Part shown: in pieces, positions 1,707-39,068 of the stretch
Position numbering within the stretch: the stretch's first letter is position 1
Layout: every line of letters starts with the position of its first letter
Assembly (NCBI GenBank): GCA_029778615.1
Contig: JAKOPZ010000104.1
Coordinates: forward strand, 1 to 49,886
Direction: 5' to 3'
DNA: 49,886 bases
Source: Chloroflexota bacterium
Lineage (GTDB): Bacteria; Chloroflexota; Anaerolineae; UBA4142; SHND01
The notes under the pieces: model-generated
The model's database searches: none
Told to the model about the DNA's origin: nothing
Seen by the model: only the letters and a program-made list of their open reading frames with translations
Position numbers and translations under genes: made by a program

Positions 1707-3184
1707 ATTCATTGATGGAAAATCTCATTCCCGAATTCATCCCCAATTGGATTGACGGCGCGCAAGTGACCGCACGCGCCAACCAACAATTTGAAAAAAT
1801 AAATCCACATGATGGACATGTACTGACACGCGTCGCGCGCTCGCGCGCCGCAGATATTGACGACGCGGTGACCGCTGCACAGCGCGCACACCGCGCGTGG
1901 GCGGATGTTCCACCTGTGCGGCGCGGCATGATGCTCCACGATGTCACGATGGCGCTGAAACAAAATCGCGAAACGATGGCGCGCATCGTGGCATTGGAGA
2001 CGGGCAAGTCATACAAACTCGCGTTGGGCGAAACGGACGGCGCGATTGAACTCGGAATTTTTTATGCGAGCGAAGGACAGCGCTTGTATGGTCGAACGAC
2101 GACGAGCGGCGCGCCGAACCGGTACGCAATGACCGTACGCCAGCCGTTGGGCATTGCGGGTCTCATTATTGCGGCGAATACGCCCATCGCGAACACGGCA
2201 TGGAAAGTGTATCCCGCGCTTGTTTGCGGCAACGCGGCGATTTTGAAAGCGGCAGAAGACACGCCCGCGACCTCGTGGTATTTCGGCAAACTCGCGCACG
2301 AAGCAGGTTTGCCGCCCGGAGTGCTAAATATCGTTCACGGTTACGGCGAAGAGGCGGGCGCGCCGCTCGTCGCGCATCCGAACGTGGATGTCATCAGTTT
2401 CACGGGTTCGACCGTGGTTGGCAAATTCATTGCGCGCACGGCGGGCGAACGTCTTGCGCGCGTGTCGCTCGAACTTGGCGGCAAGAACGCGCTCGTCGTT
2501 TGCGATGACGCGGATTTGGAAAACGCCGCCAAGTGGGTCGTGCTTTCCGCATTCAGCAATGCGGGACAGCGCTGCGCGTCTGCCACGCGTGTCATCGTGT
2601 TCGACGCGGTGTATGACAAGTTTTGTGAAATGCTCATCACGCGCGCAAACACCTTGCGCGTGGGTCCGAGCGACGACGATGATTTTGGACCGGTGATTAA
2701 CGCGACCCAATTGGATTGTATGGAAGACACTGTTGCGCGTGCGCGCGAACATGGCGCGCGTATTTTGTGCGGCGGCGCGCGGCTCCGGGACGACGCGCAT
2801 CGTGACGGCTTTTACATGTCACCGACAATTCTCGACAACGTGGACGCGCGCGCGGAAATTTCGACGACAGAATTATTTGGACCCATCACGTGTTTATATC
2901 GCGTCAAAAATTTTCAAGAGGCGTTGACGCTCGCGAACGATTCGCCGTACGGACTGACCGCCAGCATTCATACGCGGAATGTACATCGCGCGATGCAGTT
3001 TGTCCAAAAAGTCCAAGTCGGTGTCGTTACGGTAAACGCGGGAACGTACGGCAGTGAACCCCACATGCCGTTTGGCGGCGTCAAGCAGTCGGGCAACGGT
3101 TCGCGCGAACCAGGCACCGAAGCGTTGGACATTTATTCGAATTTGAAAGATGTCTATTTCCAACTCGACCCAAATTCGCTCTAG
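1700..3184 (+). CDS. NAD(P)-dependent aldehyde dehydrogenase
   Basis: A full-length ALDH superfamily enzyme of 494 residues. The catalytic Cys292 lies in NAGQRCASATR and the general base Glu258 in LELGGKN. The nucleotide-binding FTGSTVVG, the EELFGP-like TELFGP segment and a C-terminal MPFGGVKQSGNGSREPG are also present. It oxidises an aldehyde to a carboxylate. In this cassette that could create an acidic sugar or clear an aldehyde intermediate. The ATG at 1700 overlaps the SDR stop by 7 bases. A second in-frame ATG at 1715 is an equally possible start. ALDHs linked to a KdsC phosphatase, a transketolase and a CMP-sugar synthetase are unusual for standard sialic acid routes. Family assignment is firm and substrate is unknown. 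Confidence 0.9.
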   Translation: MVNSLMENLIPEFIPNWIDGAQVTARANQQFEKINPHDGHVLTRVARSRAADIDDAVTAAQRAHRAWADVPPVRRGMMLHDVTMALKQNRETMARIVALETGKSYKLALGETDGAIELGIFYASEGQRLYGRTTTSGAPNRYAMTVRQPLGIAGLIIAANTPIANTAWKVYPALVCGNAAILKAAEDTPATSWYFGKLAHEAGLPPGVLNIVHGYGEEAGAPLVAHPNVDVISFTGSTVVGKFIARTAGERLARVSLELGGKNALVVCDDADLENAAKWVVLSAFSNAGQRCASATRVIVFDAVYDKFCEMLITRANTLRVGPSDDDDFGPVINATQLDCMEDTVARAREHGARILCGGARLRDDAHRDGFYMSPTILDNVDARAEISTTELFGPITCLYRVKNFQEALTLANDSPYGLTASIHTRNVHRAMQFVQKVQVGVVTVNAGTYGSEPHMPFGGVKQSGNGSREPGTEALDIYSNLKDVYFQLDPNSL

Positions 3185-3208
3185 TGGGCGTGCATCTGTT
3201 CAGAGAAA

Positions 3209-5233
3209 ATGCTGCTTGAATCTCTTTTGACCATCGTCTTTTTTTTGCTTCTCACGCTGATTGGACTCGGACCCGCGCTGTGGTTTTTGCGAGGGCGCCC
3301 GGTGGGCTTGGCGTACGCGTTCGGCATGGCTCCCGCGCTTGGCACAGCGATTGTGGGATTGCTCGTATTTCCACTCGCTCGTTTTGTCGCGCCGGTCGAG
3401 AATTGGGCAGAGGGACTGCTGTTTGTTTTGAGTGCGGGCAGCATCCTGATAACTGTTCGTGTGTTCGACCTGTACAGGAAGCAGTTGTCAGAACTGGACA
3501 AAAAACGCGCGACGTTTGTGGTTGTTTTTGTTTTGTTGTGCGCTCTCGGCTTGCTTGCGCCGTTGGTCTTGCGCGGAATCCAGTACGCGATTTTTCGTTC
3601 CAATCCAAGCGACTCGCTTTTGTACATGTCGCTTGCGTCGTCCTTGCAGCAAGTTCCGTGGACAACTCTACTGCACGGCGCGGAATACTCGCAGCAAAAC
3701 CTAGAGGGGCTGCAAGCGCTCGCGCGCGTTTCTCCGACGTCACTATTTACCGCGCGCATGGTGGTGCTGCCTCTCGCTTTGAACAAACCTGCGTTCCTGG
3801 CGTGGCTCGCTTCGATTTCGAACGAGCCCGTGTACCGTCTTTTTTTGGCGCATCATATATTGGCAATCATGACGAGCGTGCCTCTATTGTTGGTCATGCA
3901 AGACCAGCTGCGCTTGCCCGCGCGCATTAAATTTCTGGGTGCGGCGGCAATCGTTCTCGGGTTCTGGATGTGGTTCACGCTCGAGTCGGACGCGGGCTAT
4001 GAAATCAGCGCGATGCCGCTTTTGTTTTTGTTTGTGTTGGCGTGGATGCGTTTGGAGCAAGAGCCGACACAGCTGTTTTCCAGAATGCGGCTATTGCTCG
4101 TTATTGCGGGCGCTGCCATCGTCACGTTTTATTTTCCGTACGTCGCCGTAATCGTCGTCGCGTTCGTGCTCTACTATGGATACACGGCGCTGCAACAGCG
4201 CACTCTACGCCCTGCGCTCTATCACGCGGCAACACTCGCGGGTATCCTGCTCGTGTTGTTGGTGACGGGTCAACTCGATTTCTACATTTATAACGTCGCG
4301 TATTTGGTGTTGAACCAGAACAACGGAATTGCAAATCCCAGCCCTGTTGCGAATGTCATTCGCCAAGGTAAATTTGCTGCCTTTTGGGGGCTCGGCGTCG
4401 GCGATAACTTGCCCCGTTCCGTAAATTTTCTCAGCCGCCCGGTGTCATGGCTTTTGCAGGCGTTTGGATTATTTTTGACCATCGCGTTTGGCGTTTCCGC
4501 GTGGATGCACTTGCGCTCCGCATCCAAGGCGCCGTCGCGGATTGTCTTTATGTTGTGCGCGAGCGGTATCCTCTTGGCGCTTTGGTTTATTTGGCGCAGC
4601 AACGTTCTGCTCAGCGGTCGGCTGTTTAGTTACACCTATCCCTATTTTGTGCTCGGCGTGCTGCTCATTCTCAACGCGCCGCTCACCGGCTGGTGGCAGC
4701 GCGCAATCACGCTGGGCGTCTCGCTTTGGCTCGTCAGCCAGATTGCGATGACCTTTTATCTGCCCTATGCTTTGAACCCGAATGCGAATTTTAGGAACGC
4801 GAGTGTGAGCAAACGGCATGAGTACGACCTTGCTGCAATTACGCGTGAACTGGATGCGCGTTCGCCGCAGCATTTGCTTGTCAACATTCCGCGCGAGAAC
4901 GATTGGCCCTTTGCGTATTATTGCATGTTGGTATTCAGCGCCTATCCTGCGCATTTTCAAAGCGGTATTGTGGTAGACAATAGTTTGACGCCGCGAAATT
5001 TTTGGCTCCCGACATCTGGCGAGCTGCCCGATTATGCCGTCGTCGCAAAGGATGTGGATTACTTTGGTCCCAAAGGATTGGGCGAACCAATTGCCGCGAC
5101 GAATGACCTTGTTCTCTATCGCATCACGACGGCGGATTCAAAACTGATACAGGCGCAAGAGGAGGCGATACAGTTGTCCGAGCAGCACAAACCTTTTTTC
5201 CACAGCGACGTGCAGCCACTTTGGCATCCTTGA
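3209..5233 (+). CDS. Polytopic membrane protein, GT-C-like, function unknown
   Basis: A 674-residue protein with roughly a dozen hydrophobic segments. The first begins at residue 3, and others follow at about 45-60, 105-125 and in pairs through residue 520. A soluble C-terminal part of about 150 residues comes after the last membrane span. This layout, with large lumenal loops and a soluble tail, resembles GT-C glycosyltransferases or related membrane glycan enzymes, but I see no convincing catalytic acid motif. The N-terminal segment GLGPALWFLRGRPVGLAYAFGMAPALGTAIVG is typical of uncharacterised Chloroflexota membrane proteins. It sits between the aldehyde dehydrogenase and the CMP-sugar synthetase genes, so a role in the same glycan is likely. 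The start ATG has only a weak ribosome site. Confidence 0.6.
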   Translation: MLLESLLTIVFFLLLTLIGLGPALWFLRGRPVGLAYAFGMAPALGTAIVGLLVFPLARFVAPVENWAEGLLFVLSAGSILITVRVFDLYRKQLSELDKKRATFVVVFVLLCALGLLAPLVLRGIQYAIFRSNPSDSLLYMSLASSLQQVPWTTLLHGAEYSQQNLEGLQALARVSPTSLFTARMVVLPLALNKPAFLAWLASISNEPVYRLFLAHHILAIMTSVPLLLVMQDQLRLPARIKFLGAAAIVLGFWMWFTLESDAGYEISAMPLLFLFVLAWMRLEQEPTQLFSRMRLLLVIAGAAIVTFYFPYVAVIVVAFVLYYGYTALQQRTLRPALYHAATLAGILLVLLVTGQLDFYIYNVAYLVLNQNNGIANPSPVANVIRQGKFAAFWGLGVGDNLPRSVNFLSRPVSWLLQAFGLFLTIAFGVSAWMHLRSASKAPSRIVFMLCASGILLALWFIWRSNVLLSGRLFSYTYPYFVLGVLLILNAPLTGWWQRAITLGVSLWLVSQIAMTFYLPYALNPNANFRNASVSKRHEYDLAAITRELDARSPQHLLVNIPRENDWPFAYYCMLVFSAYPAHFQSGIVVDNSLTPRNFWLPTSGELPDYAVVAKDVDYFGPKGLGEPIAATNDLVLYRITTADSKLIQAQEEAIQLSEQHKPFFHSDVQPLWHP

Positions 5234-5326
5234 ACAGGAGCGGAATACGAGATTCGTCGTGACGACAAGTTTGGGATTTCTCTATGCGCGCCGCGCGTGC
5301 AAGTGGAAAGGCGGCGGGTGAGCGCA

Positions 5327-6085
5327 ATGGCGCAGCCGTCCGTTGTGGCATTGATTCCCGCGCGTTCGGGGTCAAAACGCGTGCCTCACAAAAACATTCG
5401 CGCGTTGGCAGGACATCCTTTGCTCGCGTACACGATTTGCGCCGCGCGTGACAGCGGAATTTTTCAGGCGGTCATCGTCTCCACCGATTCCGACGAATAT
5501 GCCGCGCTCGCCCAGCAGTACGGCGCACAGGTGCCGTTTTTGCGCCCCCCCGAATTGGCGGGCGATGTCTCACCCGACATCGAGTGGGTTGAATTCACAC
5601 TGAAACGATTGAAAGAACAGGGACAGCATTTCGACTGCTTTAGCATCCTACGTCCGACAAGTCCATTTCGACAACCCGAAACCATTCAGCGCGCGTGGCG
5701 CGAATTTTTGAGTGAACGCGGTGTGGACTCACTGCGCGCGGTGGAAAAAGCAAAACAGCATCCAGGCAAGATGTGGGTTGTGCGCGGCAAGCGCATGATG
5801 CCGCTGCTCCCCTTGTCGCCGACCGAGCAGCCGTGGCACAGCAGCCAATACCAAGCGCTGCCCGAAGTGTATGTGCAAAACGCGAGTTTGGAGATTGCAT
5901 GGACGCGCGTCGTACTGGAGGAACGTACCATCGCGGGAAACACGGTGATGCCTTTTTTTACAGATGGCTACGAAGGGTTGGACGTGAACCAAGAACAAGA
6001 TTGGTGGTATGCCGAAACGCTCGTGCAGCGCGGGCTCGCAGTGCTGCCGAAAATTACGCGGCACGGGGAGCGTGTAGACTCATGA
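5327..6085 (+). CDS. CMP-ulosonate synthetase (acylneuraminate cytidylyltransferase family)
   Basis: A 252-residue nucleotidyltransferase with the family signature IPARSGSKRVPHKNIRALAG at its N terminus, which is the CTP-binding loop with its Arg and Lys. It also has LRPTSPFR near residue 110, which contacts the sugar. It would couple CTP with an eight- or nine-carbon keto-acid sugar to give CMP-sugar. The ATG at 5327 is preferred over a GTG at 5297, because the family starts a few residues before the IPARSGSKR loop. Its partner phosphatase is at 367. The stop overlaps the next gene by 4 bases. A run of seven C lies in the gene at 5555-5561. The sugar could be a nonulosonate, Kdo or a novel relative. 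Confidence 0.9.
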   Translation: MAQPSVVALIPARSGSKRVPHKNIRALAGHPLLAYTICAARDSGIFQAVIVSTDSDEYAALAQQYGAQVPFLRPPELAGDVSPDIEWVEFTLKRLKEQGQHFDCFSILRPTSPFRQPETIQRAWREFLSERGVDSLRAVEKAKQHPGKMWVVRGKRMMPLLPLSPTEQPWHSSQYQALPEVYVQNASLEIAWTRVVLEERTIAGNTVMPFFTDGYEGLDVNQEQDWWYAETLVQRGLAVLPKITRHGERVDS

Positions 6086-6912
6086 ATCCGCCCGCTGCAT
6101 ACCAGACAATTATTTTTACGCACATTCCCAAAGTCGCGGGCATGACGGTGCGGCAGATTGTGCAGTTTCAATATCCGCCGGAACAAGTTTTTACAATTTT
6201 CGCTTACACGGATGAGTCTTTGCAAACTTTTGTGGGTCTGTCTGAAATTCAAAAACAAAGATTGCGAGCAGTTCAAGGACATATCGGCTTTGGGGTTCAT
6301 GATTATCTGGGGCAGCCCGCCACCTATTTTACGCTGCTGCGCGACCCAGTAGAACGCGCCATCTCGTACTATTATTTTATCCGCCGCCATCACCAACACT
6401 CCAAACACAAACTATTGGTAGAAGGAAACATTGGGCTGCGCGAATACGTCGAGCGCGAAATTTCAGCCGTAGGGACAGACAATGAACAAACGCGCTTTTT
6501 GGGCGGCGGCTTGAACTGCGGCGAAGATATTCCGTATGGACAAGTCACGCGCCAAGTTTTGGAAAATGCGAAAACGAATTTGAAAAGGCATTATTCCGTC
6601 GTCGGCTTGACCGAAAAATTTGGCAAGACATTGCTGCTGCTGCAGCGCACGTATGGATGGCGAATTCCGCTGTCTCACAACCAAAACGTCGGAACCAATC
6701 GCCCATCTTTACATGAAATTGATTCCGAAACACTCGCGCTGCTGCGCCAGTGCAATCAACTCGACTATGAGTTATATGCGTTTGCTCAAGATTTATTTGA
6801 GCAGCAGGTTGCCGCGCGCGTGCCAAATATCAATCTGGCGTTGTTTCAGTATCAACTGAAAAACCGCGCGAGAACTTGGAAGCGGTCGCTGAACGGTTGG
6901 CGTGTGCGCTAG
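6082..6912 (+). CDS. Sulfotransferase family protein
   Basis: A 276-residue protein of the sulfotransferase family 2 type (heparan 2-O-sulfotransferase-like). The N-terminal FTHIPKVAGMTVRQIV is the 5'-phosphosulfate loop. LLRDPVERAISYYYFI near residue 90 is the 3'-phosphate-binding motif with canonical RDP. It would transfer sulfate from PAPS to a sugar hydroxyl in the cytoplasm. The ATG at 6082 overlaps the CMP-sugar synthetase stop (ATGA), so an upstream in-frame extension is rejected. No PAPS synthesis genes are visible, so PAPS must come from elsewhere in the genome. Its placement suggests that the acidic sugar or the glycan bearing it is sulfated. Confidence 0.8.
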   Translation: MNPPAAYQTIIFTHIPKVAGMTVRQIVQFQYPPEQVFTIFAYTDESLQTFVGLSEIQKQRLRAVQGHIGFGVHDYLGQPATYFTLLRDPVERAISYYYFIRRHHQHSKHKLLVEGNIGLREYVEREISAVGTDNEQTRFLGGGLNCGEDIPYGQVTRQVLENAKTNLKRHYSVVGLTEKFGKTLLLLQRTYGWRIPLSHNQNVGTNRPSLHEIDSETLALLRQCNQLDYELYAFAQDLFEQQVAARVPNINLALFQYQLKNRARTWKRSLNGWRVR

Positions 6913-6950: not shown

Positions 6951-8945
6951 ATGCCCGACATTTACCTTATTCCTCAAATCGAATTTACACGCGTCGAGTC
7001 CGCCGCCCTTGACCGCTTTCAACGCGTGCCGCTGCTCGCGAACATGGCGCGCGCCAATGCGTTGGCAATGGTCAAGCGCGCGGGTTCTGGGCATCTCGGC
7101 TCGAGTTTTAGCGCGATGGACATTGTTACGTGGCTTTACTATGAAGAAATGAATCTCCGCGCGCTCGGCTGGGATAGTTCAAATCGCGATATTTATTTTT
7201 CATCCAAAGGACATGATGTGCCCGGGCTCTATGCGGTCTTGTACGCACTCGGCGTCATTCCCTACGACCGCTACATTCGCTTACGTCGTTTCGGCGGACT
7301 AGATGGGCATCCCGACGTTGGCGTCCCCGGGGTGGAAGCAAATTCGGGTTCGCTGGGCATGGGCATTTCAAAAGGCAAAGGGATGGCGTGGGCGAAACGC
7401 TGGCGCGGCAGCGACGGACGCGTGTTTGTTATGACTGGCGATGGGGAACTGCAAGAGGGGCAAAATTTCGAAGCGCTGCAGACGGCGGTTCAGCAGCAGC
7501 TGGGCAATTTGATTGTCATCGTAGACCATAACAAGGTTCAATCCGACAAACTCGTTTCGGAAATCATTGACCTCGGGGATTTAGAAAATAAATTTCGCGC
7601 GTTCGGCTGGCGCGTGGCGCGCATTGACGGACACAATGTCCGCGCGTTCGCGGAAACTCTGACCCAGCTGCGCGACCGCGAAGGACAACCTAAAATCATC
7701 ATCGCCGATACAGTAAAAGGCAAAGGTGTTTCGTTTATGGAACACCCGCGCGCGTTGCAAGACGCGAACGGCTTGTATCCGTTTCACGCGGGCGCGCCGA
7801 ATGATGAAACGTTCCAACGCGCGTACGATGAACTCATCGAAAAAATCAATTCCGCGCTCGATGCGTTCGACCTCGCACCGCTCTTGCTCAAACTCGTCCC
7901 GCCCGAACCGAGCGAAAGCAGCAAACCCATTATGCTGTTGGGCGAACCCGTGAGTCAAGCTGCCGCCGAAAAGATTCGGAGCGGCGTGTCGGATGAGTAC
8001 GTCGCTGTCGCCTACGGACAAGCGCTGGTCGAACTCGGTGCCAAGCATCCCGAACTCGTCGTTCTGGATGCCGACCTCGCTTCGGACTGTCGCCTGCGCG
8101 GCTTTGAGCAAGCGTTCCGCGAACGGTTCATCGAAAATGGGATTGCCGAGCAGGATATGGTTTCGATGGCGGGGGGGTTGGCGCGTCTGGGCATGTTGCC
8201 CGTCGTCAATTCGTTTGCCAGTTTTCTCGCCGCGCGCGCGAATGAACAAATCTACAACAACGCGGGCGAACAGACCAAAATCCTTTACGGCTTGCATTAC
8301 GCGGGTCTGATTCCTGCAGGTCCCGGCAAATCGCACCAAAGTATTCGCGACATTTCACTGCTCGCCGCGCTGCCCAACATGACGATTGTCCAACCGTGCA
8401 ATGCGGTGGAAACCAAATTGTTTGTAGAATATTGTGTTGAACGCGCGCAAGAAAACTGTGCGCTGCGCCTGGTGATTGGTCCTTCGCCGCGCAAGCTGCA
8501 ATTGCCTGCAAAGTATGAATTGCAAGTCGGCTGTGGGGTCGAATTGGCGGCGGGAACAGATGCCGTTCTCTTTGCGTATGGCCCCGTCATGCTTCACGAG
8601 GCACTGCTGGCGTCCGAGCTTTTGGGCGAACGCGGGTTCGCTTTGCGCGTGGTGAACATGCCGTGGTTAAATCGCTTTGACCGCGCGTGGCTCGCACGCA
8701 CCGTGTCTGACATGAACTATATTTTTGTTTTGGATGACCACTCGCCTATCGGAGGGTTGGGCGACCAATTGCAGAGCGCATTACTGGAGAGTATGCTCTG
8801 GAATGACAGGCGCCTCACAAAATTCGGTGTCGAAGGGTATCCTGCGTGCGGCACGCCGCAACAGGCGTTGCATTTTCATCAACTCGACGGCGCGTCCCTT
8901 GCCGCGCGCATTTTGCAGCGAGTCAAGCAGGGAAAGGTCAACTGA
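6951..8945 (+). CDS. Transketolase, full length (both domains fused)
   Basis: A 664-residue transketolase with both the TPP-binding and Pyr domains. Near the N terminus is AGSGHLGSSFSAMD with the substrate-phosphate His. The TPP/Mg motif starts at GDG (163-165) and ends at the Asn of VDHNKVQ (about 194). The catalytic Glu is at about 400 in ENGIAEQDM. It moves a two-carbon ketol unit between sugars. The ATG at 6951 is chosen because it does not overlap the sulfotransferase gene and precedes the conserved core by a normal distance. The stop shares a base with the next ATG (TGATG). In many polysaccharide clusters transketolase is split into two genes; here it is fused. Position inside a CMP-sugar cassette suggests a dedicated biosynthetic role rather than central metabolism. 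A run of seven G lies at 8171-8177. Confidence 0.88.
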   Translation: MPDIYLIPQIEFTRVESAALDRFQRVPLLANMARANALAMVKRAGSGHLGSSFSAMDIVTWLYYEEMNLRALGWDSSNRDIYFSSKGHDVPGLYAVLYALGVIPYDRYIRLRRFGGLDGHPDVGVPGVEANSGSLGMGISKGKGMAWAKRWRGSDGRVFVMTGDGELQEGQNFEALQTAVQQQLGNLIVIVDHNKVQSDKLVSEIIDLGDLENKFRAFGWRVARIDGHNVRAFAETLTQLRDREGQPKIIIADTVKGKGVSFMEHPRALQDANGLYPFHAGAPNDETFQRAYDELIEKINSALDAFDLAPLLLKLVPPEPSESSKPIMLLGEPVSQAAAEKIRSGVSDEYVAVAYGQALVELGAKHPELVVLDADLASDCRLRGFEQAFRERFIENGIAEQDMVSMAGGLARLGMLPVVNSFASFLAARANEQIYNNAGEQTKILYGLHYAGLIPAGPGKSHQSIRDISLLAALPNMTIVQPCNAVETKLFVEYCVERAQENCALRLVIGPSPRKLQLPAKYELQVGCGVELAAGTDAVLFAYGPVMLHEALLASELLGERGFALRVVNMPWLNRFDRAWLARTVSDMNYIFVLDDHSPIGGLGDQLQSALLESMLWNDRRLTKFGVEGYPACGTPQQALHFHQLDGASLAARILQRVKQGKVN

Positions 8946-10645
8946 TGCTGAAACGCGTCGAACAAAAGTTGAAAGCGCTGCTTCCCGTCCGCGCGCCGAA
9001 TTCGGCGCGCGGACGCGTTGCGCCTCCGTTCGATTGGCAGCCCGTTTTACGGCGTGACGCGGCAGCGTGGCGCGCCGCTCGCGCGCGAGCGCGAACGGGT
9101 CCGCGTGTACTCGTCGGCACCACGGTCGGCGGATACGCGGCAGGCACTCTGGTCGAAAGTCTTTTGGCGGTTGCGCTGACGCTGCGCGGTGCGAACGTGG
9201 AAATTCTCTTGTGCGACCACGCGCTCTCTGGCTGCCAACAAGCGATGATTTCAAATCTGCGCGCGGAAGCCATCGCCGCGCACGGACCTCAGCGCAAGCT
9301 GTGCCCCGCGTGCTTTGGCGCAGGCGATGCTTTGTATCGCGCGTTGGGGCTGCGTATTCATCGTCTGGGCGACAATGTGAGCGCGGCGGAACGGCGTCAA
9401 GCCGACGCGTGCGCCGAAAAAATTCCGCTCGACGCGATTCCCCAATTCACCGACGACGGTTTGGCGATTGGGGAGCACGCGTACGCGGGCGCCCTGCGCT
9501 ATTTTGCGCGCGGCGACTTGGGCGACGAGGAATTGGCGGAACCGATTCTGCGGCGTTATTTTCACGCAGCGCTGCTCACCACGGCGGCAGTGAAAAAGTT
9601 ACAGCAGGCGCGGCGCTTTGAACATTCCGTATTTCATCACGGCTTGTACGTGCCGCAAGGCATTCTGGGTCAAGTGGCGCGGCAAGAAGGAGTGCATGTT
9701 GTCAATTGGGCGCCGGGCTATCGCAAGCAGCGTTTTATCTTTACCCACGACGAGACGTACCATCATGCGCTCTTGGCGGAGCCCACCTCGAATTGGGAAG
9801 ATATCGGATGGAATGCGACTCTCGAAAAGGACACGCTGGATTATCTCAAGAGCCGTTGGCAAGGCACACGCGATTGGATTTGGTTTCATGAAAAACCGCA
9901 AGAGGAATTGTCAGCGATTGCGGCGCAGCTCGGAATTGATTTCAGTCGTCCGACAATTGGGATGTTGAGCAACGTGATGTGGGACGCGCAGCTGCACTAT
10001 CGCGCCAACGCGTTCGCGAACATGTTGGAGTGGACCTTGAGCACTCTCCGTTACTTTGCAACGCGCCCAGAATTGCAGTTACTGATTCGGATTCACCCTG
10101 CTGAAATTCGCGGTACGATTCCATCGCGTCAGCCGCTGCTGGCAGAAATTGAAAAAGCGTTTCCGCAGCTGCCAGCCAATGTGTTTGTTATTCCCCCAGA
10201 GAGCCAGACCAGCACGTATGCGGCGATGCTGCCCTGCAACGCAATTTTGATTTACGGCACCAAGACGGGGGTGGAGCTCGCGAGTTTGGGACTGCCCGTA
10301 ATCGTCGCGGGGGAAGCATGGGTACGCAACAAAGGATTGACACTGGACGCAAGCAGCGCGGACGAGTATTTTCGTTTGTTGGACAAACTGCCGCTGCCCG
10401 CGCGTCTGGACGCCTCGACGACGCAGCGCGCGCGGAAATACGCGTATCACTTTTTCTTTCGCCGCATGATTCCACTTGGCATGTTTGAGCCACTGACCGG
10501 CGCGCCACCGTACCGCCTCAATATAGCGGCTCTTGACGAGCTGCGTCCGGGCAAGAGCGAGGGATTGGACATTGTCTGCGATGGGATCCTCAACGGCAGC
10601 GAGTTTATTTATCCCGCCGAAAACAGCGCGGAACATTTCGACTGA
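8945..10645 (+). CDS. Capsule-synthesis-type glycosyltransferase (GT-B-like)
   Basis: A 566-residue protein. Its C-terminal half has IYGTKTGVELASLGLPVIVAG, a hallmark of capsular polysaccharide synthesis proteins (the KpsC/KpsS-like and LpxB-like GT-B group), where this loop binds the sugar nucleotide. The N-terminal half has a KLCPACFGAGDALYRALGL segment, a Cys-pair motif seen in related proteins from polysaccharide clusters. An LIRIHPAE motif near residue 380 also fits GT-B enzymes. Some relatives use CMP-Kdo, which fits the CMP-sugar genes just upstream, so this may be the transferase for the cassette's product (inference). The first 45 residues are basic and low-complexity and carry a 30-base perfect palindrome at 8986-9015. 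Confidence 0.65.
   Translation: MLKRVEQKLKALLPVRAPNSARGRVAPPFDWQPVLRRDAAAWRAARARARTGPRVLVGTTVGGYAAGTLVESLLAVALTLRGANVEILLCDHALSGCQQAMISNLRAEAIAAHGPQRKLCPACFGAGDALYRALGLRIHRLGDNVSAAERRQADACAEKIPLDAIPQFTDDGLAIGEHAYAGALRYFARGDLGDEELAEPILRRYFHAALLTTAAVKKLQQARRFEHSVFHHGLYVPQGILGQVARQEGVHVVNWAPGYRKQRFIFTHDETYHHALLAEPTSNWEDIGWNATLEKDTLDYLKSRWQGTRDWIWFHEKPQEELSAIAAQLGIDFSRPTIGMLSNVMWDAQLHYRANAFANMLEWTLSTLRYFATRPELQLLIRIHPAEIRGTIPSRQPLLAEIEKAFPQLPANVFVIPPESQTSTYAAMLPCNAILIYGTKTGVELASLGLPVIVAGEAWVRNKGLTLDASSADEYFRLLDKLPLPARLDASTTQRARKYAYHFFFRRMIPLGMFEPLTGAPPYRLNIAALDELRPGKSEGLDIVCDGILNGSEFIYPAENSAEHFD
8986..9015. repeat. 30-base perfect palindrome inside a coding region
   Basis: Bases 8986-9015 read the same on both strands, with GAATTC at the centre flanked by GC-rich arms starting CGTCCGCGCG. 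The palindrome encodes residues of the low-complexity N terminus of the capsule-type glycosyltransferase. It would form a very stable hairpin in mRNA about 40 bases after the start codon. Confidence 0.85.
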
Positions 10646-10648
10646 ATT

Positions 10649-11605
10649 ATGAACACTTTTCGCGTATTGCCCGGGTTGAAACGCCGCGCGGGCAAGTTGA
10701 TGCGGCGCGCGCGCGGCTTGCGCTCAAATGACACTGCGACGCGACCGAACGAGGCGGTGACATCGCCCCCGAACGGTTTGGAGGAGCATGTCATCGCGAA
10801 CGCGCGGCTGCTACTTCCAAGCGGAAACAGACTGCCGCTCTTTCTCAAGCACAATCCGCAGTACAACGCCAATCTGCCGCGCATCGCCAAACATGTCAAG
10901 GCAAAATACTCTGCGCTGACATTGATTGATGTAGGCGCGAATGTCGGCGACACGGTTGCTTTTTTGCGCGCAGAGGCGCACTTTCCGATTTTGTGCGTTG
11001 AAGGGGATGAGCAATTCTTTTCGATTCTGCAAAAAAATCTACAGCAGTTCGCGGATGTGCAAGCGGTGCAAGCGTACGTCGGCGTCACAACGGAAACGGC
11101 TCCGCTGGAAATCAAGCATAACGCGACAACCGCACAGCTGGTGCCTTCCTCATCGACAACAGACCTGCAAATGCGAACTCTCACCGATATTCTGGCGCAG
11201 TATCCCGCATTTGCTCAAGCGAAAATTCTAAAGATTGATACTGACGGCTATGATGGTCAAGTGCTGCGCGGGGCGCGGGCTTATCTCGAAGCGGTCCAGC
11301 CCGTTGTTTTCTTTGAGTATATGCCCGATGAGCTTGCCGCGTTCGGCGACGATGGATTGAGTCTCTTTCCGGTTTTGCATGCGGCGGGCTATCGCGACGC
11401 GTTGATTTATGATAATGCGGGCGATTTGATGCTGTCGCTCCGCGTGGATGACGCTTTGCGCTGGCAAGAGCTGCATATCTATTTTTCGGGGCGTCGCGGT
11501 TTGCGTTATATGGATTTGGCAGTTTTTGTGGAGCAAGACCGGGATTTATTCGAGAACGTGCGTGCAGCCGAGTTGGAATTCAGTCGGCGCGGGCGCACCG
11601 CGTGA
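10649..11605 (+). CDS. FkbM family methyltransferase
   Basis: A 318-residue SAM-dependent methyltransferase of the FkbM type. The SAM loop LIDVGANVGDTVAFL lies near residues 92-106. The acidic end of the second strand is LCVEGDE, and the family-specific ILKIDTDGYDGQVLRGA follows near residue 195. FkbM enzymes methylate hydroxyl groups, often on sugars, so this one probably O-methylates a residue of the polysaccharide. The ATG at 10649 follows the previous stop by three bases. The first 40 residues are basic and poorly conserved in appearance. The substrate cannot be told from sequence. Confidence 0.85.
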   Translation: MNTFRVLPGLKRRAGKLMRRARGLRSNDTATRPNEAVTSPPNGLEEHVIANARLLLPSGNRLPLFLKHNPQYNANLPRIAKHVKAKYSALTLIDVGANVGDTVAFLRAEAHFPILCVEGDEQFFSILQKNLQQFADVQAVQAYVGVTTETAPLEIKHNATTAQLVPSSSTTDLQMRTLTDILAQYPAFAQAKILKIDTDGYDGQVLRGARAYLEAVQPVVFFEYMPDELAAFGDDGLSLFPVLHAAGYRDALIYDNAGDLMLSLRVDDALRWQELHIYFSGRRGLRYMDLAVFVEQDRDLFENVRAAELEFSRRGRTA

Positions 11606-11633
11606 GCGCGCACCCGCATATGGCATTGCAAGC

Positions 11634-12872
11634 ATGGGTCTAAAGATTGGTATCGGCGTGGGTGATACCGCGCTTGGCAGCGCAGGGGGACTCGATGTAT
11701 ACACGCGCACGCTCGTCGAAGCGCTCGACGAGCACGAACACACCAACCAGTACTTTGTGCTCTTGCGTGAAAAAGGCAAGCGCGCCGAGAGCCGCGCGCG
11801 TGAAGCATGGTTGGATAGAAAATGGTCGCGCAATGTTCGCTTTATCATCGTGCGCGACCACGCACTGCCGCCCACGCGCCGCGAAATCTGGCAACGCCGT
11901 ATCCTTCGGCGCTTACGGATGGAGCCGCCGCAAATTCCCGACACTGTTGAAGAATATCGCGCGTACCAAATAGACCGCTTACGTTTAAACTTGGTCCATT
12001 TTCCGCGCACTGCAATCAGCCCGCTGTGTTTGGGGACGCCCGCACTACTCACCTTTTTTGACTTGCAGCACGAATATTTCCCCGAATTTTTCACGCCTGC
12101 CGAAAGGTTGGGACGCACTACTCATTTCCGGGCAGCAATCGCCAAAGCGCGCCATATCATTGCCCCGTCGGAATACACCAAGCACACGCTAAATGAAACT
12201 TACGGTGTGCTAAATTCCAAAATGAGTGTCGTGCCCGTCGGCATCTCTCGGTCCTTTCAGCGCGTTCCGCCGCACGAAATTGAACGCGTGCGTGCCAAAT
12301 ACAATCTGCCGCAAGAATTTATTTTCTATCCCGCGAATCCGTGGCGGCATAAAAATCATCAGCGGTTGTTTCAGAGTCTGCGCCTGTACCGCGAACGCTA
12401 CGGACAAGCGCCCAAGTTGGTTTTGTCGGGACGCTTGCGCGGCGAACAGTTGGATGCGCTTTCACTCGCCGAGCAAGAAGGTGTCGCCGACCTTGTAATT
12501 GATTTGGGCTTTTTCCCGCGCGCGGACAGTGCCGCGATTTTCAGCGCGGCGACAATGTTGGTGTTTCCTTCGCTGTTTGAGGGGTTCGGAATTCCGTTGA
12601 TTGAAGCAATGGCGTGTGAATGTCCAATCGCCGCCGCGGATGCAACCGCGATTCCCGAATGTGTGCAAGACAGCGCGTTGCTTTTCAATCCGCTCGACGT
12701 GAACGAAATGACGGACGCAATCTATCGGGTAATGAACGACGCGACTTGGCGCGCAACCCTTGTGGCGCGTGGACGCGTGCGCGTGCAGCGTTATCACTGG
12801 GAACGGGTCATCCCGGAATTACTTTTGGTGTATCGCCAAACTATGTTACTATCCCAGACCGGGCAAACGTAA
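11634..12872 (+). CDS. Glycosyltransferase family 4 protein
   Basis: A 412-residue GT-B enzyme. It begins with LKIGIGVGDTALGSAGGLDVYTR, where the Gly-rich loop follows the first strand. The C-terminal donor domain has FPSLFEGFGIPLIEAMACECPI, the EX7E motif that binds the nucleotide-sugar in GT4 enzymes. It would act in the cytoplasm on the lipid-linked repeat unit. The ATG at 11634 is chosen because the open frame upstream overlaps the FkbM gene and lacks GT character. The stop shares one base with the next start (TAATG). The overall type resembles retaining mannosyl- or glucosyltransferases; the sugar is not predictable. Confidence 0.85.
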   Translation: MGLKIGIGVGDTALGSAGGLDVYTRTLVEALDEHEHTNQYFVLLREKGKRAESRAREAWLDRKWSRNVRFIIVRDHALPPTRREIWQRRILRRLRMEPPQIPDTVEEYRAYQIDRLRLNLVHFPRTAISPLCLGTPALLTFFDLQHEYFPEFFTPAERLGRTTHFRAAIAKARHIIAPSEYTKHTLNETYGVLNSKMSVVPVGISRSFQRVPPHEIERVRAKYNLPQEFIFYPANPWRHKNHQRLFQSLRLYRERYGQAPKLVLSGRLRGEQLDALSLAEQEGVADLVIDLGFFPRADSAAIFSAATMLVFPSLFEGFGIPLIEAMACECPIAAADATAIPECVQDSALLFNPLDVNEMTDAIYRVMNDATWRATLVARGRVRVQRYHWERVIPELLLVYRQTMLLSQTGQT

Positions 12873-13837
12873 TGACCAAAAGCACTCTTGTTTCGCCAAA
12901 TCAACGCTGGAACAAATTGACCCGGCGCGCCCGGCGCGAAGGCGTCAAGGGCTTGGCGCGCTGGGGCGCGGAATGGCTGTACTGGAACGGGAGACTTTAT
13001 CGCGCCGTCACTCCCACAACACTGGAACAATGGCGCCTCGCGCTCAAGTACAATAGCCCATTCAAAAAATACGGCATCCACGCGCCCATCATTGTTTATC
13101 AAATGGGCAAAGTTGCATCCACTTCCGTCTATAATTCGCTTCGGGCGCTGGACTTGGATGTGCCTGTTTATCATCTGCACTTTTTGAATGACCTTGAAGC
13201 GCATGAAGAGGAACTCGCGCGCCTGTATCGTCCCGAGCACGGGGGACGCCAGATGATTCGCATTGCGCGAGAATTACGCGCCCAAATGCAGGATGCCCCA
13301 CGTCAAAAGTGGAATCTCATTAGTCTGGTTCGCCTGCCCATCCCACGCGCCATTTCGGGCTATTTCATGAAACTGGAGCATTACTTTCCCGCATTTCAAG
13401 AGCGGCTCGCACGCGGTGAATTGACCATCCGAGAAATTGCCAATTACTTTGCCGAAGAGTATCGCGACCGTATGCCCGATTTTTGGTTTGAACAACAGGT
13501 TCAAGCCCTGTTTGGAATTGATGTCTATGCGAGCGAATTTCCCAAAGCACGCGGCTTTCAGATTTATGAACAAAAGAATATCCGTTTACTTGTGATTCGA
13601 GCGGAAGATTTGAATCGGTGCGCTGTGGAGGCAATGCGCGCATTTCTTGGTCTCGCCAGTTTTCAAGTGATGAACAAAAATCTGGCTGAAGAAAAAAAAT
13701 ATGCCGGTGCCTATCAAGACTTTCAACGCGTGTTGCGAATGCCGCCAGAATATGTTCGGCAAATGCACGATACCCAGTACGCGCAACATTTTTATACGCA
13801 GGAAGAATTGAATGCAAGCGTCCAAAGATGGACATGA
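12872..13837 (+). CDS. NKWYS-type sulfotransferase-like protein, tandem copy 1
   Basis: First of four tandem paralogs, 321 residues. It shares with the others a basic N terminus, LYWNGRLY, then VYQMGKVASTSVYNSL, which resembles a PAPS 5'-phosphosulfate loop. LVRLPIPRAISGYF resembles the 3'-phosphate motif, but Leu replaces the usual Asp of RDP. FGIDVYASEFPKARG and a C-terminal QYAQHFYT are also shared. The loop has Ala where the other three copies have Gly. The family matches what is annotated as putative capsular polysaccharide synthesis protein (NKWYS). Sulfation of the glycan is the likeliest role, by analogy only. The ATG overlaps the preceding stop by one base. Confidence 0.75.
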   Translation: MTKSTLVSPNQRWNKLTRRARREGVKGLARWGAEWLYWNGRLYRAVTPTTLEQWRLALKYNSPFKKYGIHAPIIVYQMGKVASTSVYNSLRALDLDVPVYHLHFLNDLEAHEEELARLYRPEHGGRQMIRIARELRAQMQDAPRQKWNLISLVRLPIPRAISGYFMKLEHYFPAFQERLARGELTIREIANYFAEEYRDRMPDFWFEQQVQALFGIDVYASEFPKARGFQIYEQKNIRLLVIRAEDLNRCAVEAMRAFLGLASFQVMNKNLAEEKKYAGAYQDFQRVLRMPPEYVRQMHDTQYAQHFYTQEELNASVQRWT

Positions 13838-13929
13838 ACAGAATGGCTCAAGAGACAAGTGTCTTGTGCTCTTGACTCGCTAGACCTCGGGCATATCTTG
13901 TTGCGCGCATCCATCATTCGGAAAAAAGA

Positions 13930-14886
13930 ATGGCAAATCATGCAGTGTCAGTCAGCTCACGACGTTTCGCCAAAATTGTGAATCGGCTTAGGCGAGACGG
14001 CGTCAGTACACTTCCCAACTGGGCAATGGATTGGGTTTATTGGAAGGGTGGTCTTTACCAAATTCCAAGATTGCATGAATTGCGCGCCAAGTACAAATAC
14101 AATCGCCGCACAAAAAAATTCGGTATACAGGACCCCGTTCTCGTGTACCAAATGGGCAAGGTCGGTTCGAGCTCAATTTATTATTCTTTGCTGAGACTGG
14201 ACTTGGATGTTCCCATTCACCAGATTCATTTTTTAAACCACATTGACCATTACGAGCAATGGATGCGGAGTACGATGCCGAATAATACTGCCGCGCCCAA
14301 GCTGTTCGGACTTGCGCGAAGCATCCGCCGCGAGTTAGACAGCGCACCCGGACGGCGGTGGAATCTAATCAGTCTGGTGCGCGCACCGATTCCGCGCGCA
14401 ATTTCCAGTTTCTTTCAGAATTTGGATGCCGCTTTCCCATCCTACCGTCAACGCGTAGCAGAGAATCAGCTGACCGCGCGCGAGATTGCAGACTTTTTTG
14501 TGAATCAGTACTATGACATTCTGCCCCAACAATGGTTTGACACCCAAATCAAAGCTGTATTTGGGATTGACGTTTATGCCAGCGAATTTCCGAAAGCGCG
14601 CGGCTATCAGATTTATGAACAAGACAACATTCGCCTAGTTGTTATTCGAATGGAGGATTTAAGGTCGTGCGCAGCAGAGGCGATGCACGAATTTCTGGGG
14701 ATTGCCGATTTTCAACTTGTTAATAAAAATATCGGCGACGAAAAAAAATACGCGGACTTGTATCGTGAGTTTCGGCAGCTCTTGCGCTTGCCGCCGGAGT
14801 ATGTTCAGAAAATGCACAGCACCCAGTACGCGCAGCATTTTTACACTGTTCAAGAACTAGCCGAGAGTGTGCGTCAATGGCTTTAG
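13930..14886 (+). CDS. NKWYS-type sulfotransferase-like protein, tandem copy 2
   Basis: Second copy, 318 residues. The 5'-loop reads VYQMGKVGSSSIYYSL and the 3'-motif LVRAPIPRAISSFF, with Ala in place of the canonical Asp. FGIDVYASEFPKARGYQIYE and QYAQHFYT are nearly identical to copies 1 and 3. It is separated from copy 1 by 92 bases and from copy 3 by about 100 bases, unlike the tight overlaps elsewhere. This spacing looks like tandem duplication with flanking DNA. Divergence is concentrated in the segment between the two motifs (about residues 95-140) that in sulfotransferases helps shape the acceptor site. The copies may therefore sulfate different positions (inference). Confidence 0.75.
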   Translation: MANHAVSVSSRRFAKIVNRLRRDGVSTLPNWAMDWVYWKGGLYQIPRLHELRAKYKYNRRTKKFGIQDPVLVYQMGKVGSSSIYYSLLRLDLDVPIHQIHFLNHIDHYEQWMRSTMPNNTAAPKLFGLARSIRRELDSAPGRRWNLISLVRAPIPRAISSFFQNLDAAFPSYRQRVAENQLTAREIADFFVNQYYDILPQQWFDTQIKAVFGIDVYASEFPKARGYQIYEQDNIRLVVIRMEDLRSCAAEAMHEFLGIADFQLVNKNIGDEKKYADLYREFRQLLRLPPEYVQKMHSTQYAQHFYTVQELAESVRQWL

Positions 14887-14986
14887 GATGCGTAAGGCAA
14901 GCTTGATTTTCAGCGGCGAGCAAATCAGAAATGCGAGCACAGCAATCAGAACGCCATCTTGACTCGCAACGGACATTTCGTTGAAT

Positions 14987-15925
14987 ATGACATCGCAAGG
15001 AAAGTGGAGCAAGCTACAAAGCCGTGTTGCGCGCGAGGGGTTTGGCGCCGTCCCGCGTTGGGCAGTAAATAGTCTGTATTGGAACGCTCAACTGTATCGC
15101 ATTCCCGGCTTGCCCGAACTCCGCACCGCATACAAATACAACCGGCGCGCGAAAAAATTCGGCATTCAAGACCCGCTTATCGTTTATCAGATGGGCAAGG
15201 TCGGTTCGAGTTCACTCTATCGCTCTCTGCTGGCAATGGATTTGGATGTCCCTGTATACAAAATCCATTTCCTGAACCATCTGGAGCAGAAAGAACAATG
15301 GATGAGCCAAGCCATGCCGGAAAATTCTGACGGGTTCCGCATGTTCGCGCTGGGGAAACAGCTTAGGAGCGAAATGGAACGCAACCCGCACAAAGCTTGG
15401 AATCTAATAAGCATGGTGCGCGCGCCCGTTCCGCGCGGTATTTCCGGTTTCTTTCAAAATTTGGAAGCAACCTTTCCATCGTTTCGCCAAGTCAACGCGT
15501 ACAACAAATTGACGGCGCGTGAACTGGTTGACTATTTTGTCAACACTTATTATGACCGCGTCCCAAATGAATGGTTTGACGCGCAGGTAAAAGACTTGTT
15601 TGGAATTGACGTATATGCGACTGAATTTCCCAAAGCGCGCGGCTATCAAATTTACATCAAGGACAATATCCGATTGTTGGTCATCCGTCTGGAGGATTTG
15701 AATCGCTGCGTAAGCGATGCCATGCGCGAGTTCCTTGGCATTCCCAATTTTCAGCTCAAGACTGAAAATGTTGGTGAGCAAAAAAAATACGCCGAGCTCT
15801 ATCGCGATTTTCTCCACACGCTGCGACTGTCACCGGAACGGCTGGCACTCTGGCACGATTGTCAATACGCGCAGCATTTTTACACAAGACAAGAGTTGGC
15901 GAAAAGTGTCGAGCGGTGGGTGTAA
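14987..15925 (+). CDS. NKWYS-type sulfotransferase-like protein, tandem copy 3
   Basis: Third copy, 312 residues. It carries VYQMGKVGSSSLYRSL and MVRAPVPRGISGFF, then FGIDVYATEFPKARGYQIY and QYAQHFYT. It looks closest to copy 2, sharing YKYNRRxKKFGIQDP and IHFLNH. The ATG at 14987 is preferred; a TTG six bases earlier is also possible. No strong ribosome site is seen. Only 18 bases separate its stop from copy 4. As in the other copies, a hydrophobic residue replaces the RDP aspartate, so catalytic activity should not be assumed. Confidence 0.73.
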   Translation: MTSQGKWSKLQSRVAREGFGAVPRWAVNSLYWNAQLYRIPGLPELRTAYKYNRRAKKFGIQDPLIVYQMGKVGSSSLYRSLLAMDLDVPVYKIHFLNHLEQKEQWMSQAMPENSDGFRMFALGKQLRSEMERNPHKAWNLISMVRAPVPRGISGFFQNLEATFPSFRQVNAYNKLTARELVDYFVNTYYDRVPNEWFDAQVKDLFGIDVYATEFPKARGYQIYIKDNIRLLVIRLEDLNRCVSDAMREFLGIPNFQLKTENVGEQKKYAELYRDFLHTLRLSPERLALWHDCQYAQHFYTRQELAKSVERWV

Positions 15926-15943
15926 AACTCTAGCAAATACTCT

Positions 15944-16945
15944 ATGAGTACTTTGTCAAACGTTGAAACGCAAGGGCGCTGGAACAAGCTGAAAAATCGC
16001 GTCGCCAACGAAGGCGCTGCGAGTCTTGCGAAATGGGCAGCGCAATGGATATATTGGAATGGGCGCTTGTATTACTTGGCGCATCCGCCCAATCGTGAGC
16101 ATCTGCGCCTTGCCTATAAATATCGTCGTCGCAATAAAAAGTACGGAATCCATGAGCCAATCTTGGTTTATCAAATGGGCAAGGTTGGGTCCACTTCTGT
16201 CTACAAATCGTTGGTGGCACTGGATTTGGATGTGCCGGTTGACCAAACGGTCTCTCTAAATCGCCTTGATATACGCGAACAGTGGCTTTTGCAAGCCAAC
16301 CCCATTGACACCGTTGCGCTGGAAACTTTAGCGCGCGACCGTCGGATTCGGCGACACATTGAGGAACGTCCAAATCAAAAGTGGAACATTATTTGTTTGG
16401 TACGCGCGCCACTGCCGCGCGGGATTTCGGCTTTTTTTCATAATATGGGAGCAACCTTTCCCGGCTATCACGAACGACGGGCGCAGAATGACTTGACAGC
16501 GCGCGAACTCGTCGAATATTTTGTTAACCACTACTTTGACAACATTCCGAACGAGTGGTTTGACCGCGAACTCCGGGCGCTGTTTGGAATTGATGTATTC
16601 GCAACCGAATTCCCCAAGTCTCGTGGGTACAGCTTTTATGAAAACGAACGCTGCCGCGTCCTATTGATGCGCTTGGAGGACTTGGAGCGTTGTGCGGCGC
16701 CCGCGTTATATGAATTTCTGAAGATTCCCAACTTTGAATTGTTGAAAGCCAATACCGGCGAGCAGAAAGAGTACGGCGAATTGTACCGCGAGTTTCTTGC
16801 TATTCTTCGTGTGACGCCGGAATGGCTCACGCCGTGGCACGAATCGCGCTATGCGAAACATTTTTACACGCCAGAAGAGTTGGAGAAAAGCGCGCAACGC
16901 TGGACATCTTTTTCTTTGGCTCCGAATCAACCGGCGCGGGTCTGA
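15944..16945 (+). CDS. NKWYS-type sulfotransferase-like protein, tandem copy 4
   Basis: Fourth and most divergent copy, 333 residues. It keeps VYQMGKVGSTSVYKSL and LVRAPLPRGISAFF. It changes the following segment to VDQTVSLNRLD where the others have an IHFLN or LHFLN motif. It also has FGIDVFATEFPKSRGYSFYE and a C-terminal RYAKHFYT with an extra tail of about 13 residues. Loss of the HFLN His may alter the acceptor site. It ends the tandem array; a GT2 gene follows after 57 bases. Confidence 0.73.
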   Translation: MSTLSNVETQGRWNKLKNRVANEGAASLAKWAAQWIYWNGRLYYLAHPPNREHLRLAYKYRRRNKKYGIHEPILVYQMGKVGSTSVYKSLVALDLDVPVDQTVSLNRLDIREQWLLQANPIDTVALETLARDRRIRRHIEERPNQKWNIICLVRAPLPRGISAFFHNMGATFPGYHERRAQNDLTARELVEYFVNHYFDNIPNEWFDRELRALFGIDVFATEFPKSRGYSFYENERCRVLLMRLEDLERCAAPALYEFLKIPNFELLKANTGEQKEYGELYREFLAILRVTPEWLTPWHESRYAKHFYTPEELEKSAQRWTSFSLAPNQPARV

Positions 16946-17002
16946 CAAGCGTGACAACGCACCGACGCGTAAATATATCTTTTTGTCGTAGGCACAAATT
17001 CA

Positions 17003-17857
17003 TTGAAAATTTCCATCGTTACACCCTCGTTCAATCAAGCCCGCTATCTCGAAGCAACCATCCTGTCGGTCTTGAATCAGGATTATTCCAATGTCGAGTA
17101 CATTGTCATTGATGGCGGCAGTACGGATGGTTCGGTTGACATTATCCAAAAATATGCAGACCGTTTGACGTATTGGGTGAGCGAACCCGACAGCGGACAG
17201 TACGATGCGATTAACAAAGGGTTCGCGCACGCGACGGGCGACATCATGGCATGGCTCAATTCCGACGATATGCTCTTTCCGTGGGCATGTCGTGCGGTGG
17301 CACTCGTGTTCCAGCAAATGCCGCACATCGAATGGTTGACCAGCAACTATTTAATGAGTTGGACGCGCACGGGGATTGGTAACACAGCTGCGACGGCGAA
17401 TGGTTTTTCGAAACGGTCATTTTACGCCGGACGCAACTTGAATCTTAACCACTATTATCATTCCTTTATTCAGCAAGAGTCTACATTTTGGCGACGCAGT
17501 TTGTGGGAACGTATCGGGAGCCATTTGGACGTTGAGCTGGATTATGCCGCGGATTTCGATTTGTGGGCGCGTTTTTGGCAATTTACCGAGCTGGCAACTT
17601 TGACCGCACCGCTCGGCGGAATGCGTTTTCATACAGAACAAAAGACGGCGCGTGACGCCGCGCGCTATACGCGTCAAGCAGAATCTGTTTTGCGGCGACA
17701 TGGTTACAAAGGCAGCCCATCGCGGCTGTCTCTCTTGTTGCGGAAAGGTTTGCGGCGTATTCCTTACGTGAGGCGGTTTATTGGAGACCGCGCGCGCATG
17801 GTCGGCATCGAATCGGCAACGGAAAAAGTTTTCGAGTACTGGGTGCCAATTATTTAA
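17003..17857 (+). CDS. Glycosyltransferase family 2 protein
   Basis: A 284-residue GT-A enzyme. It starts [10 protein letters not shown]-like ([20 protein letters not shown]), followed by the nucleotide-binding [14 protein letters not shown] and the metal-binding LNSDD near residue 90. A late DFDLWARF segment supplies the probable catalytic acid. It transfers a sugar in the cytoplasm. The start is a TTG at 17003, since no ATG precedes the conserved first strand. It belongs to the same subgroup as the genes at 17875 and 21031, which share the EYIxIDGGSxDxSV and YWVSExDxG strings. Confidence 0.87.
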
Positions 17858-17874
17858 CTGACGGGTGTACAGAC

Positions 17875-18846
17875 GTGATAATTGATGTTAACGATTTGCC
17901 GCCACCACCGGCGGGACGTGCGGGATTCCCATGGACAGAAGGCAGTCCGCCGTTGCCGCCGACGATGCCCAACGGCGCGGCATGGCTCAAGGTCTCCATC
18001 GTCACGCCCTCTTTTCGTCAGGCGCAATATCTGGAAGAAACAATTCGTTCGGTGTTGCTGCAAGGGTATCCGAATTTAGAATACATCATCATTGACGGCG
18101 GCAGCACCGACGGCAGCGTCGAGATTATTCGCAAATATGAAAAATGGCTCGCCTATTGGGTCAGCGAAAAAGACAAGGGACACGCGAACGCATTAAACAA
18201 AGCATGGGGCAAATGCACCGGAGAGATTTGGGGCTGGCTGAATTCCGATGATGTGTACATGCCCGGCGCGCTTGCGACGGTGATTCCCCATTTCGCGCAA
18301 GCGCCCGATGTGAAATTGGTCTATGGCTCGGCGATGTTTACCAACCAAAATGGGGAACCGATTCAGATTTATCAGGGCAAGCCGTTAGCGCCCGGATTGG
18401 AACGGTTGAAATTGTGGAAAGGTTGGCCCCTGCCCCAGCCGAGCGCGTTCTTTGCTCGCGAATTGGTCGCGCGCTATGGTGGCTTGGACGAGACCCTTTA
18501 CTATTCATTCGACGCCGAATGGTTTCTCCGCGTCGCACAGCGCGAAAAATTCATTTGTCTTGACGCGGTGCTGGCAACCTATCGCTTTCATACCCAGTCC
18601 AAAACCGGCGTCAGCTATGCGAACAAAGAACTATTTGAAATTGACAATCGCAAAATCATGGCAAGATATGCGCCCCTCTACTCTCCCAAGTCTTGGGGAC
18701 TGTATTGGGCATACGCGGCAGAACAGTTGGGTCCGGTTGTGCGTTCGCGCTATTGGCGGTTGCACGCGTTGGTGCGACGTATCTATGGCGGCACGCGTCG
18801 CCGCGTGCGCGAGTATGGCGGCAAATTGCGCGGCATGAGCAATTAG
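17875..18846 (+). CDS. Glycosyltransferase family 2 protein with PPPPAGR leader
   Basis: A 323-residue GT-A enzyme. It begins with a Pro-rich leader, PPPPAGRAGFPWTEGSPPLP, that I recognise from a recurrent group of GT2 proteins in polysaccharide clusters. Then come [24 protein letters not shown], the metal-binding LNSDDVYMPG, and FDAEWFLRVAQ as the likely catalytic region. The start GTG at 17875 is supported because the leader is part of the family's usual N terminus. It follows the related GT2 at 17003 by 17 bases, so the pair probably arose by duplication or was acquired together. Confidence 0.87.
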   Translation: MIIDVNDLPPPPAGRAGFPWTEGSPPLPPTMPNGAAWLKVSIVTPSFRQAQYLEETIRSVLLQGYPNLEYIIIDGGSTDGSVEIIRKYEKWLAYWVSEKDKGHANALNKAWGKCTGEIWGWLNSDDVYMPGALATVIPHFAQAPDVKLVYGSAMFTNQNGEPIQIYQGKPLAPGLERLKLWKGWPLPQPSAFFARELVARYGGLDETLYYSFDAEWFLRVAQREKFICLDAVLATYRFHTQSKTGVSYANKELFEIDNRKIMARYAPLYSPKSWGLYWAYAAEQLGPVVRSRYWRLHALVRRIYGGTRRRVREYGGKLRGMSN

Positions 18847-31627: not shown

Positions 31628-31636
31628 CGATTTGTG

Positions 31637-39016: not shown

Positions 39017-39023
39017 TTGCCGC

Positions 39024-39052: not shown

Positions 39053-39068
39053 TTGCAAGGAGTTTCGG

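Follow-up and report, generated by a model that had tools for sequence, protein, structure and literature searches.

Why should an exopolysaccharide gene cluster carry four adjacent copies of a gene family for which the libraries we searched state no enzymatic function? The question is raised by a stretch of 49,886 nucleotides from a Chloroflexota bacterium (contig JAKOPZ010000104.1; hereafter the window), in which a preliminary description had recognized four tandem NKWYS/sulfotransferase-like paralogs. That observation is confirmed by our analysis, whereas its interpretation, either as position-specific modification of one polymer or as an expanding family, is supported in part. All four ORFs are intact and lie on the same strand between positions 12872 and 16945:

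12872–13837, forward strand: NKWYS copy 1, 321 amino acids, RLP variant, histidine kept.
13930–14886, forward strand: NKWYS copy 2, 318 amino acids, RAP variant, histidine kept.
14987–15925, forward strand: NKWYS copy 3, 312 amino acids, RAP variant, histidine kept.
15944–16945, forward strand: NKWYS copy 4, 333 amino acids, RAP variant, valine in place of a near-invariant histidine.

The ATG of copy 1 overlaps the stop codon of the preceding glycosyltransferase gene, and gaps of 92, 100 and 18 bases separate copies 1 and 2, 2 and 3, and 3 and 4, with a TTG at 14981 as a possible alternative to the ATG start of copy 3 at 14987. Each protein matches the Pfam family PF10364 (NKWYS, 'Putative capsular polysaccharide synthesis protein') with 86.5–97.3 bits (E 2e-24 to 1e-27), the curated cut-off being 25.1 bits. 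Identity across the copies amounts to 47–59%; copies 2 and 3 are 59% identical, and copy 1 shares 47–52% with the others. The motifs named in the preliminary description are present in all of them: VYQMGKV(G/A)S(S/T)S, R(A/L)P(I/V/L)PRxIS, FGIDV(Y/F)A(S/T)EFPK(A/S)RG and YA(Q/K)HFYT. No NKWYS gene was found outside the array in the 6.0 Mb draft genome, i.e. these four are its only copies.

The array is part of a Wzy-type exopolysaccharide cluster, in which Pfam recognizes many glycosyltransferases and a hexapeptide transferase in addition to the following genes:

6079–6912, forward strand: classical Sulfotransfer_2 gene with HIPKVAGMT and the usual RDP motif (LRDPVERAIS); start codon provisional.
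10649–12872, forward strand: FkbM methyltransferase and GT4 glycosyltransferase, directly upstream of the array.
17003–18846, forward strand: two family 2 glycosyltransferases, directly downstream of the array.
28304–29761, forward strand: Wzy-like polymerase/ligase.
37235–40670, forward strand: initiating sugar transferase (Bac_transf) and Wzz/ParA co-polymerase.

Pfam detected no flippase in this cluster. Three large cluster ORFs (3209–5233, 8846–10645 and 31634–33148) have no Pfam match, and the missing flippase may be one of them. A congener (L102:41–2337) carries genes for an aldehyde dehydrogenase, a CTP_transf_3-like protein and a Sulfotransfer_2 protein in the same order as positions 1700–6912 of the window.

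We consider it probable that the products of the four genes are carbohydrate sulfotransferases which belong to the NKWYS family, depend on PAPS and decorate the repeat unit or the polymer of the surrounding cluster. Family and clade membership, the predicted fold, the conservation of motifs and the gene neighbourhood are results of the analysis; PAPS binding, acceptor, catalytic base and division of labour are inferred. In the mechanism that we propose, the GKVGSSS loop would hold the 5'-phosphosulfate and the arginine and serine of R-x-P-x5-S the 3'-phosphate, a histidine terminating the second strand would serve as the base that activates a sugar hydroxyl, and the helical segment after it (residues 104–140) would help to select the acceptor. 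Following serial local duplication, copies 1–3 are predicted to be active on different acceptors. We hold the family assignment with more confidence than the division of labour. It counts against this reading that the genes for ATP sulfurylase and APS kinase, which the genome does encode, are located on a different contig from the array and serve other needs too.

The residues that would contact PAPS are well conserved. The 5' loop GKV(G/A)S(S/T)S, as expected for binding of 5'-phosphosulfate, is present in all copies (family: lysine and serine each in 65 of 66 rows). In known sulfotransferases the 3'-phosphate is bound by an arginine and by a serine eight residues further on, a spacing typical of these enzymes. 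R-x-P-x5-S is likewise found in all four copies, and in the family the arginine (66/66) and the proline are invariant and the serine is present in 61 of 66 rows. An aspartate or asparagine following the arginine is a common sulfotransferase consensus which is not known to be required. The preliminary description had pointed out that alanine or leucine replaces this aspartate in all copies. The replacement is real, but it characterizes the genus and not the NKWYS family: 70 of 80 domains carry D, E or N at this position (47, 21 and 2, respectively), and alanine (7) or leucine (3) occurs only in this genus and in one further row. The loss of the aspartate counts against the sulfotransferase reading, yet it need not abolish PAPS binding, because arginine and serine are retained.

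In SULT enzymes the catalytic histidine ends the second strand. The NKWYS family has histidine at the end of this strand in 63 of 66 rows, tyrosine in two, and valine solely in copy 4. Judged by topology rather than coordinates, this histidine probably sits at the place of the catalytic one and is thus a candidate for the base. It is kept in copies 1–3, while the valine of copy 4 replaces what is most likely the residue needed for catalysis; copy 4 is therefore predicted to be inactive or to rely on another base.

It is possible, though less likely than not, that the array mixes active enzymes with pseudoenzymes, such that the loss of the aspartate in the clade and of the histidine in copy 4 marks proteins that still bind nucleotide or glycan and serve the other sulfotransferases as scaffolds or regulators. 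The occurrence of R-A/L-P throughout the nine-member genus clade is compatible with this idea, as is the restriction of the histidine-to-valine exchange to copy 4, whose branch is longer (0.54) than those of copies 2 and 3 (0.19–0.20) and whose predicted fold is retained (AlphaFold2 model, pLDDT 90.5). By contrast, the arginine and serine that contact phosphate in known sulfotransferases are kept in every copy. Moreover, synonymous sites are saturated between copies (hence dN/dS ratios were not used) and dN is 0.32–0.46, which indicates that the duplications are old and that the intact ORFs have been selected as proteins.

The segment after the 5' loop, which had been described as differing between copies, does show the strongest divergence within the array. 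Residues 104–140, right after the histidine, are 16–35% identical between copies, compared with 47–65% for residues 141–318. Among family pairs with an identity of 0.60 or above elsewhere, the window pairs show the lowest identity in residues 104–140, a comparison that is suggestive and no formal test as many of the pairs are Vibrionaceae orthologs. The loss of the near-invariant histidine in copy 4 and the fast-diverging segment that follows this position are new observations. The latter is consistent with the proposed position-specific modification of one polymer; copy 4 may be non-catalytic altogether. Since motifs, cluster and strand are the same for all copies, they might merely represent redundant copies that raise the dosage of a single activity with no division of labour. 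We regard this as unlikely in view of their ancient divergence and of a segment 104–140 whose divergence exceeds that in all other pairs with comparable overall identity (0.60 or above).

Fold prediction, profile comparisons and gene neighbourhoods support the sulfotransferase-like nature of the family. For the AlphaFold2 model of copy 2 (66-row alignment; pLDDT 91.7, pTM 0.84), the best 50 PDB entries found with a second-look aligner are all PAPS sulfotransferases (Z 7.6–9.1), headed by human 3-O-sulfotransferase 5 (Z 9.1), and the same is true of the best 50 entries for copy 4 (Z 7.0–8.7). As Z values of 7–9 fall in the range which that aligner calls common, weight rests on the uniformity of the match list and on the sequence evidence. 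Foldseek returned no match in the PDB at E < 0.001. Taken together, the models predict a sulfotransferase fold for copies 2 and 4.

At the sequence level, a search with the family profile hits heparan 3-O-sulfotransferase 3 (E 0.005), the match lying at the 3' motif. With hhalign, a probability of 94.8% was obtained against four Sulfotransfer_2 proteins, with both motifs in register, and only 16.7% against a Sulfotransfer_1 alignment, yet at the correct motif. Independently built Sulfotransfer_1 and Sulfotransfer_2 models detected, at E < 1e-3, 23 and 24 of 80 NKWYS domains, respectively, but no reversed-sequence control, and an Enterovibrio member exceeds Pfam's own cut-off for Sulfotransfer_1. 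Among the copies themselves, copy 1 reaches 16.8 bits with Sulfotransfer_2 (PF03567) and copies 2–4 have no match; the cut-off is 22 bits, and therefore they are not filed under this family. A phmmer search of PDB sequences with copy 2 gave chance matches only, NCBIfam yielded nothing meaningful for the copies, and literature searches on NKWYS and PF10364 found nothing. An Armatimonadota protein (L019:1618–5229) is a natural fusion of Sulfotransfer_3, a WbsX glycosyltransferase and NKWYS.

In three unrelated lineages NKWYS genes are located beside PAPS-making genes:

Gracilibacillus: cysD, a cysN-cysC fusion and cysQ.
Hanstruepera: cysQ, cysC, cysD and cysN.
Enterovibrio/Grimontia: cysD and cysN, at many loci that were counted as one lineage.

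A crude estimate of the chance of finding such neighbours at three of 68 loci is 0.005, on the assumption that loci are independent, which they are not. In one Enterovibrio stretch (L061) the gene order is export protein, co-polymerase, DHH phosphoesterase, cysD, cysN, glycosyltransferase, Wzy, NKWYS, glycosyltransferase, citrate/sulfate-type transporter and Wzx, the first two being named from their own sequences and from matching genes of L055. This exopolysaccharide cluster (L061:4202–14860) thus has cysD, cysN, the phosphoesterase and the transporter built in, together with a single NKWYS gene; no other sulfotransferase was found in the stretch.

These data bear on the alternative that NKWYS proteins are P-loop-type transferases for another donor, for example glycosyl- or phosphotransferases, and that their likeness to sulfotransferases reflects a shared nucleotide fold only. 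Weak direct sequence similarity, a Foldseek result below threshold and a Pfam family name that refers just to capsular polysaccharide synthesis would all accord with it. We nevertheless judge it improbable, because hhalign and the two independently built sulfotransferase models concur, PAPS-making genes adjoin NKWYS in three lineages, and the Arg-Ser spacing of eight matches that of sulfotransferases.

With respect to origin, the family occurs in six of 400 Chloroflexota genomes, and the other carriers have at most two copies each. Among 60 relatives, tandem pairs occur in two congeners and a single gene in one, while two congeners have no copy. In a 70-row tree the nine sequences of the genus form one clade (support 100/99), all members of which carry R-A/L-P. 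Within it the four window copies are a clade with moderate support (99 bootstrap/57 SH-aLRT), which adjoins the second gene of the congeners' pairs and branches in gene order, (1,(2,(3,4))). The tree thus supports the suggested expansion through local duplication, and the copies appear to have arisen serially and long ago. That each copy came separately through horizontal transfer, as the array's G+C content of about 48.5% (window 12001–17000) against 55–59% upstream might suggest, is hardly credible and was rejected on the tree, given the genus-wide clade and the serial branching, albeit with mixed support for the four-copy node (99/57). The low G+C fits a single acquisition preceding the duplications and is no proof of it.

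In the stretches that were read, congeners G003 and G005 share almost no neighbours of the array, and G004 shares several glycosyltransferases. The claim that four adjacent copies are exceptional holds insofar as this is the largest array among the genomes compared; tandem pairs or fused double domains recur, however, in other Chloroflexota (L017, L021), on an Aminicenantes contig (L038) and in the Vibrio harveyi group. At L017:4373–6097 and L021:135–3113 two NKWYS domains are combined in one protein, the L021 pair behind a glycosyltransferase domain. At L080:9941–10800 and L078:1542–2431 an NKWYS gene is spread over two frames, owing to either pseudogene formation or sequencing error. No NKWYS relative was found in phage records, and a plasmid collection gave three weak matches and nothing stronger.

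A link to phenotype may come from Vibrio vulnificus, in which rugose colonies and the pellicle depend on cysD and cysC, and hence on PAPS, separately from brp expression; the matrix component behind this need was left open by the authors (PMC6113621). In the brp paper of 2014, functions are assigned to brpA, C, D, I and J, and further genes are shaded to mark an unknown function (PMC4094392); brpH is presumably one of the latter. When the published brpH-brpI linkage primer CAP25 was used as a search pattern over 227 Vibrio genomes, its site was present in exactly one, a genome in which six of nine published brp primers match. The site falls within an NKWYS ORF, on either side of which a glycosyltransferase gene occupies the position of brpI or brpF:

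L133:7420–8370, reverse strand: NKWYS gene at the brpH position.

The encoded protein carries GKVGSSS, the histidine and RDPIATVLS. Primer sites and gene order suggest that this genome is V. vulnificus and the ORF brpH. If BrpH were an exopolysaccharide sulfotransferase, this would explain the PAPS requirement.

A survey of sulfated exopolysaccharide genes covered PF00685, PF03567 and PF13469 only (PMC8205485), and a second one, which recorded the gene as absent from Chloroflexi MAGs, PF13469 alone (PMC9723792). It is tempting to speculate, though we do so tentatively, that NKWYS proteins are unrecognized, widespread bacterial exopolysaccharide sulfotransferases missed by surveys based on these three usual Pfam families, that they have expanded here into a four-gene array which includes a conserved pseudo-sulfotransferase, and that the member at the brpH position accounts for the PAPS dependence of biofilm rugosity in Vibrio. 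Were PF10364 a sulfotransferase family, bacterial polysaccharide sulfation would reach wider than both counts, and the basis of the PAPS need of V. vulnificus apart from exopolysaccharide gene expression would become directly testable (PMC6113621).

Compared with PF10364 at large, whose motifs the four copies share, this genus is distinguished by the absence of the RDP aspartate, and the window by an array of four and a copy 4 devoid of the near-invariant histidine. With heparan 3-O-, 2-O- and N-sulfotransferases (Sulfotransfer_2/Sulfotransfer_1) the copies have in common the predicted fold, the 5' loop, Arg-x-Pro...Ser, a post-strand histidine (copies 1–3) and a carbohydrate setting; they are, however, too dissimilar in sequence for the Pfam sulfotransferase cut-offs, and NKWYS possesses a conserved C-terminal part of its own (FGIDV, WFD, HFYT). 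Like the present cluster, the synechan cluster xss of Synechocystis makes an exopolysaccharide by the Wzx/Wzy-type route and holds at least two sulfotransferases, whereas PF10364 is absent from the families covered in that survey (PMC8205485). Finally, the brp locus of V. vulnificus (PMC4094392, PMC6113621) resembles the window in that, in the one Vibrio genome with the CAP25 site, an NKWYS gene occupies the brpH position; it differs in that a single such gene was found in this stretch, with the RDP motif intact.
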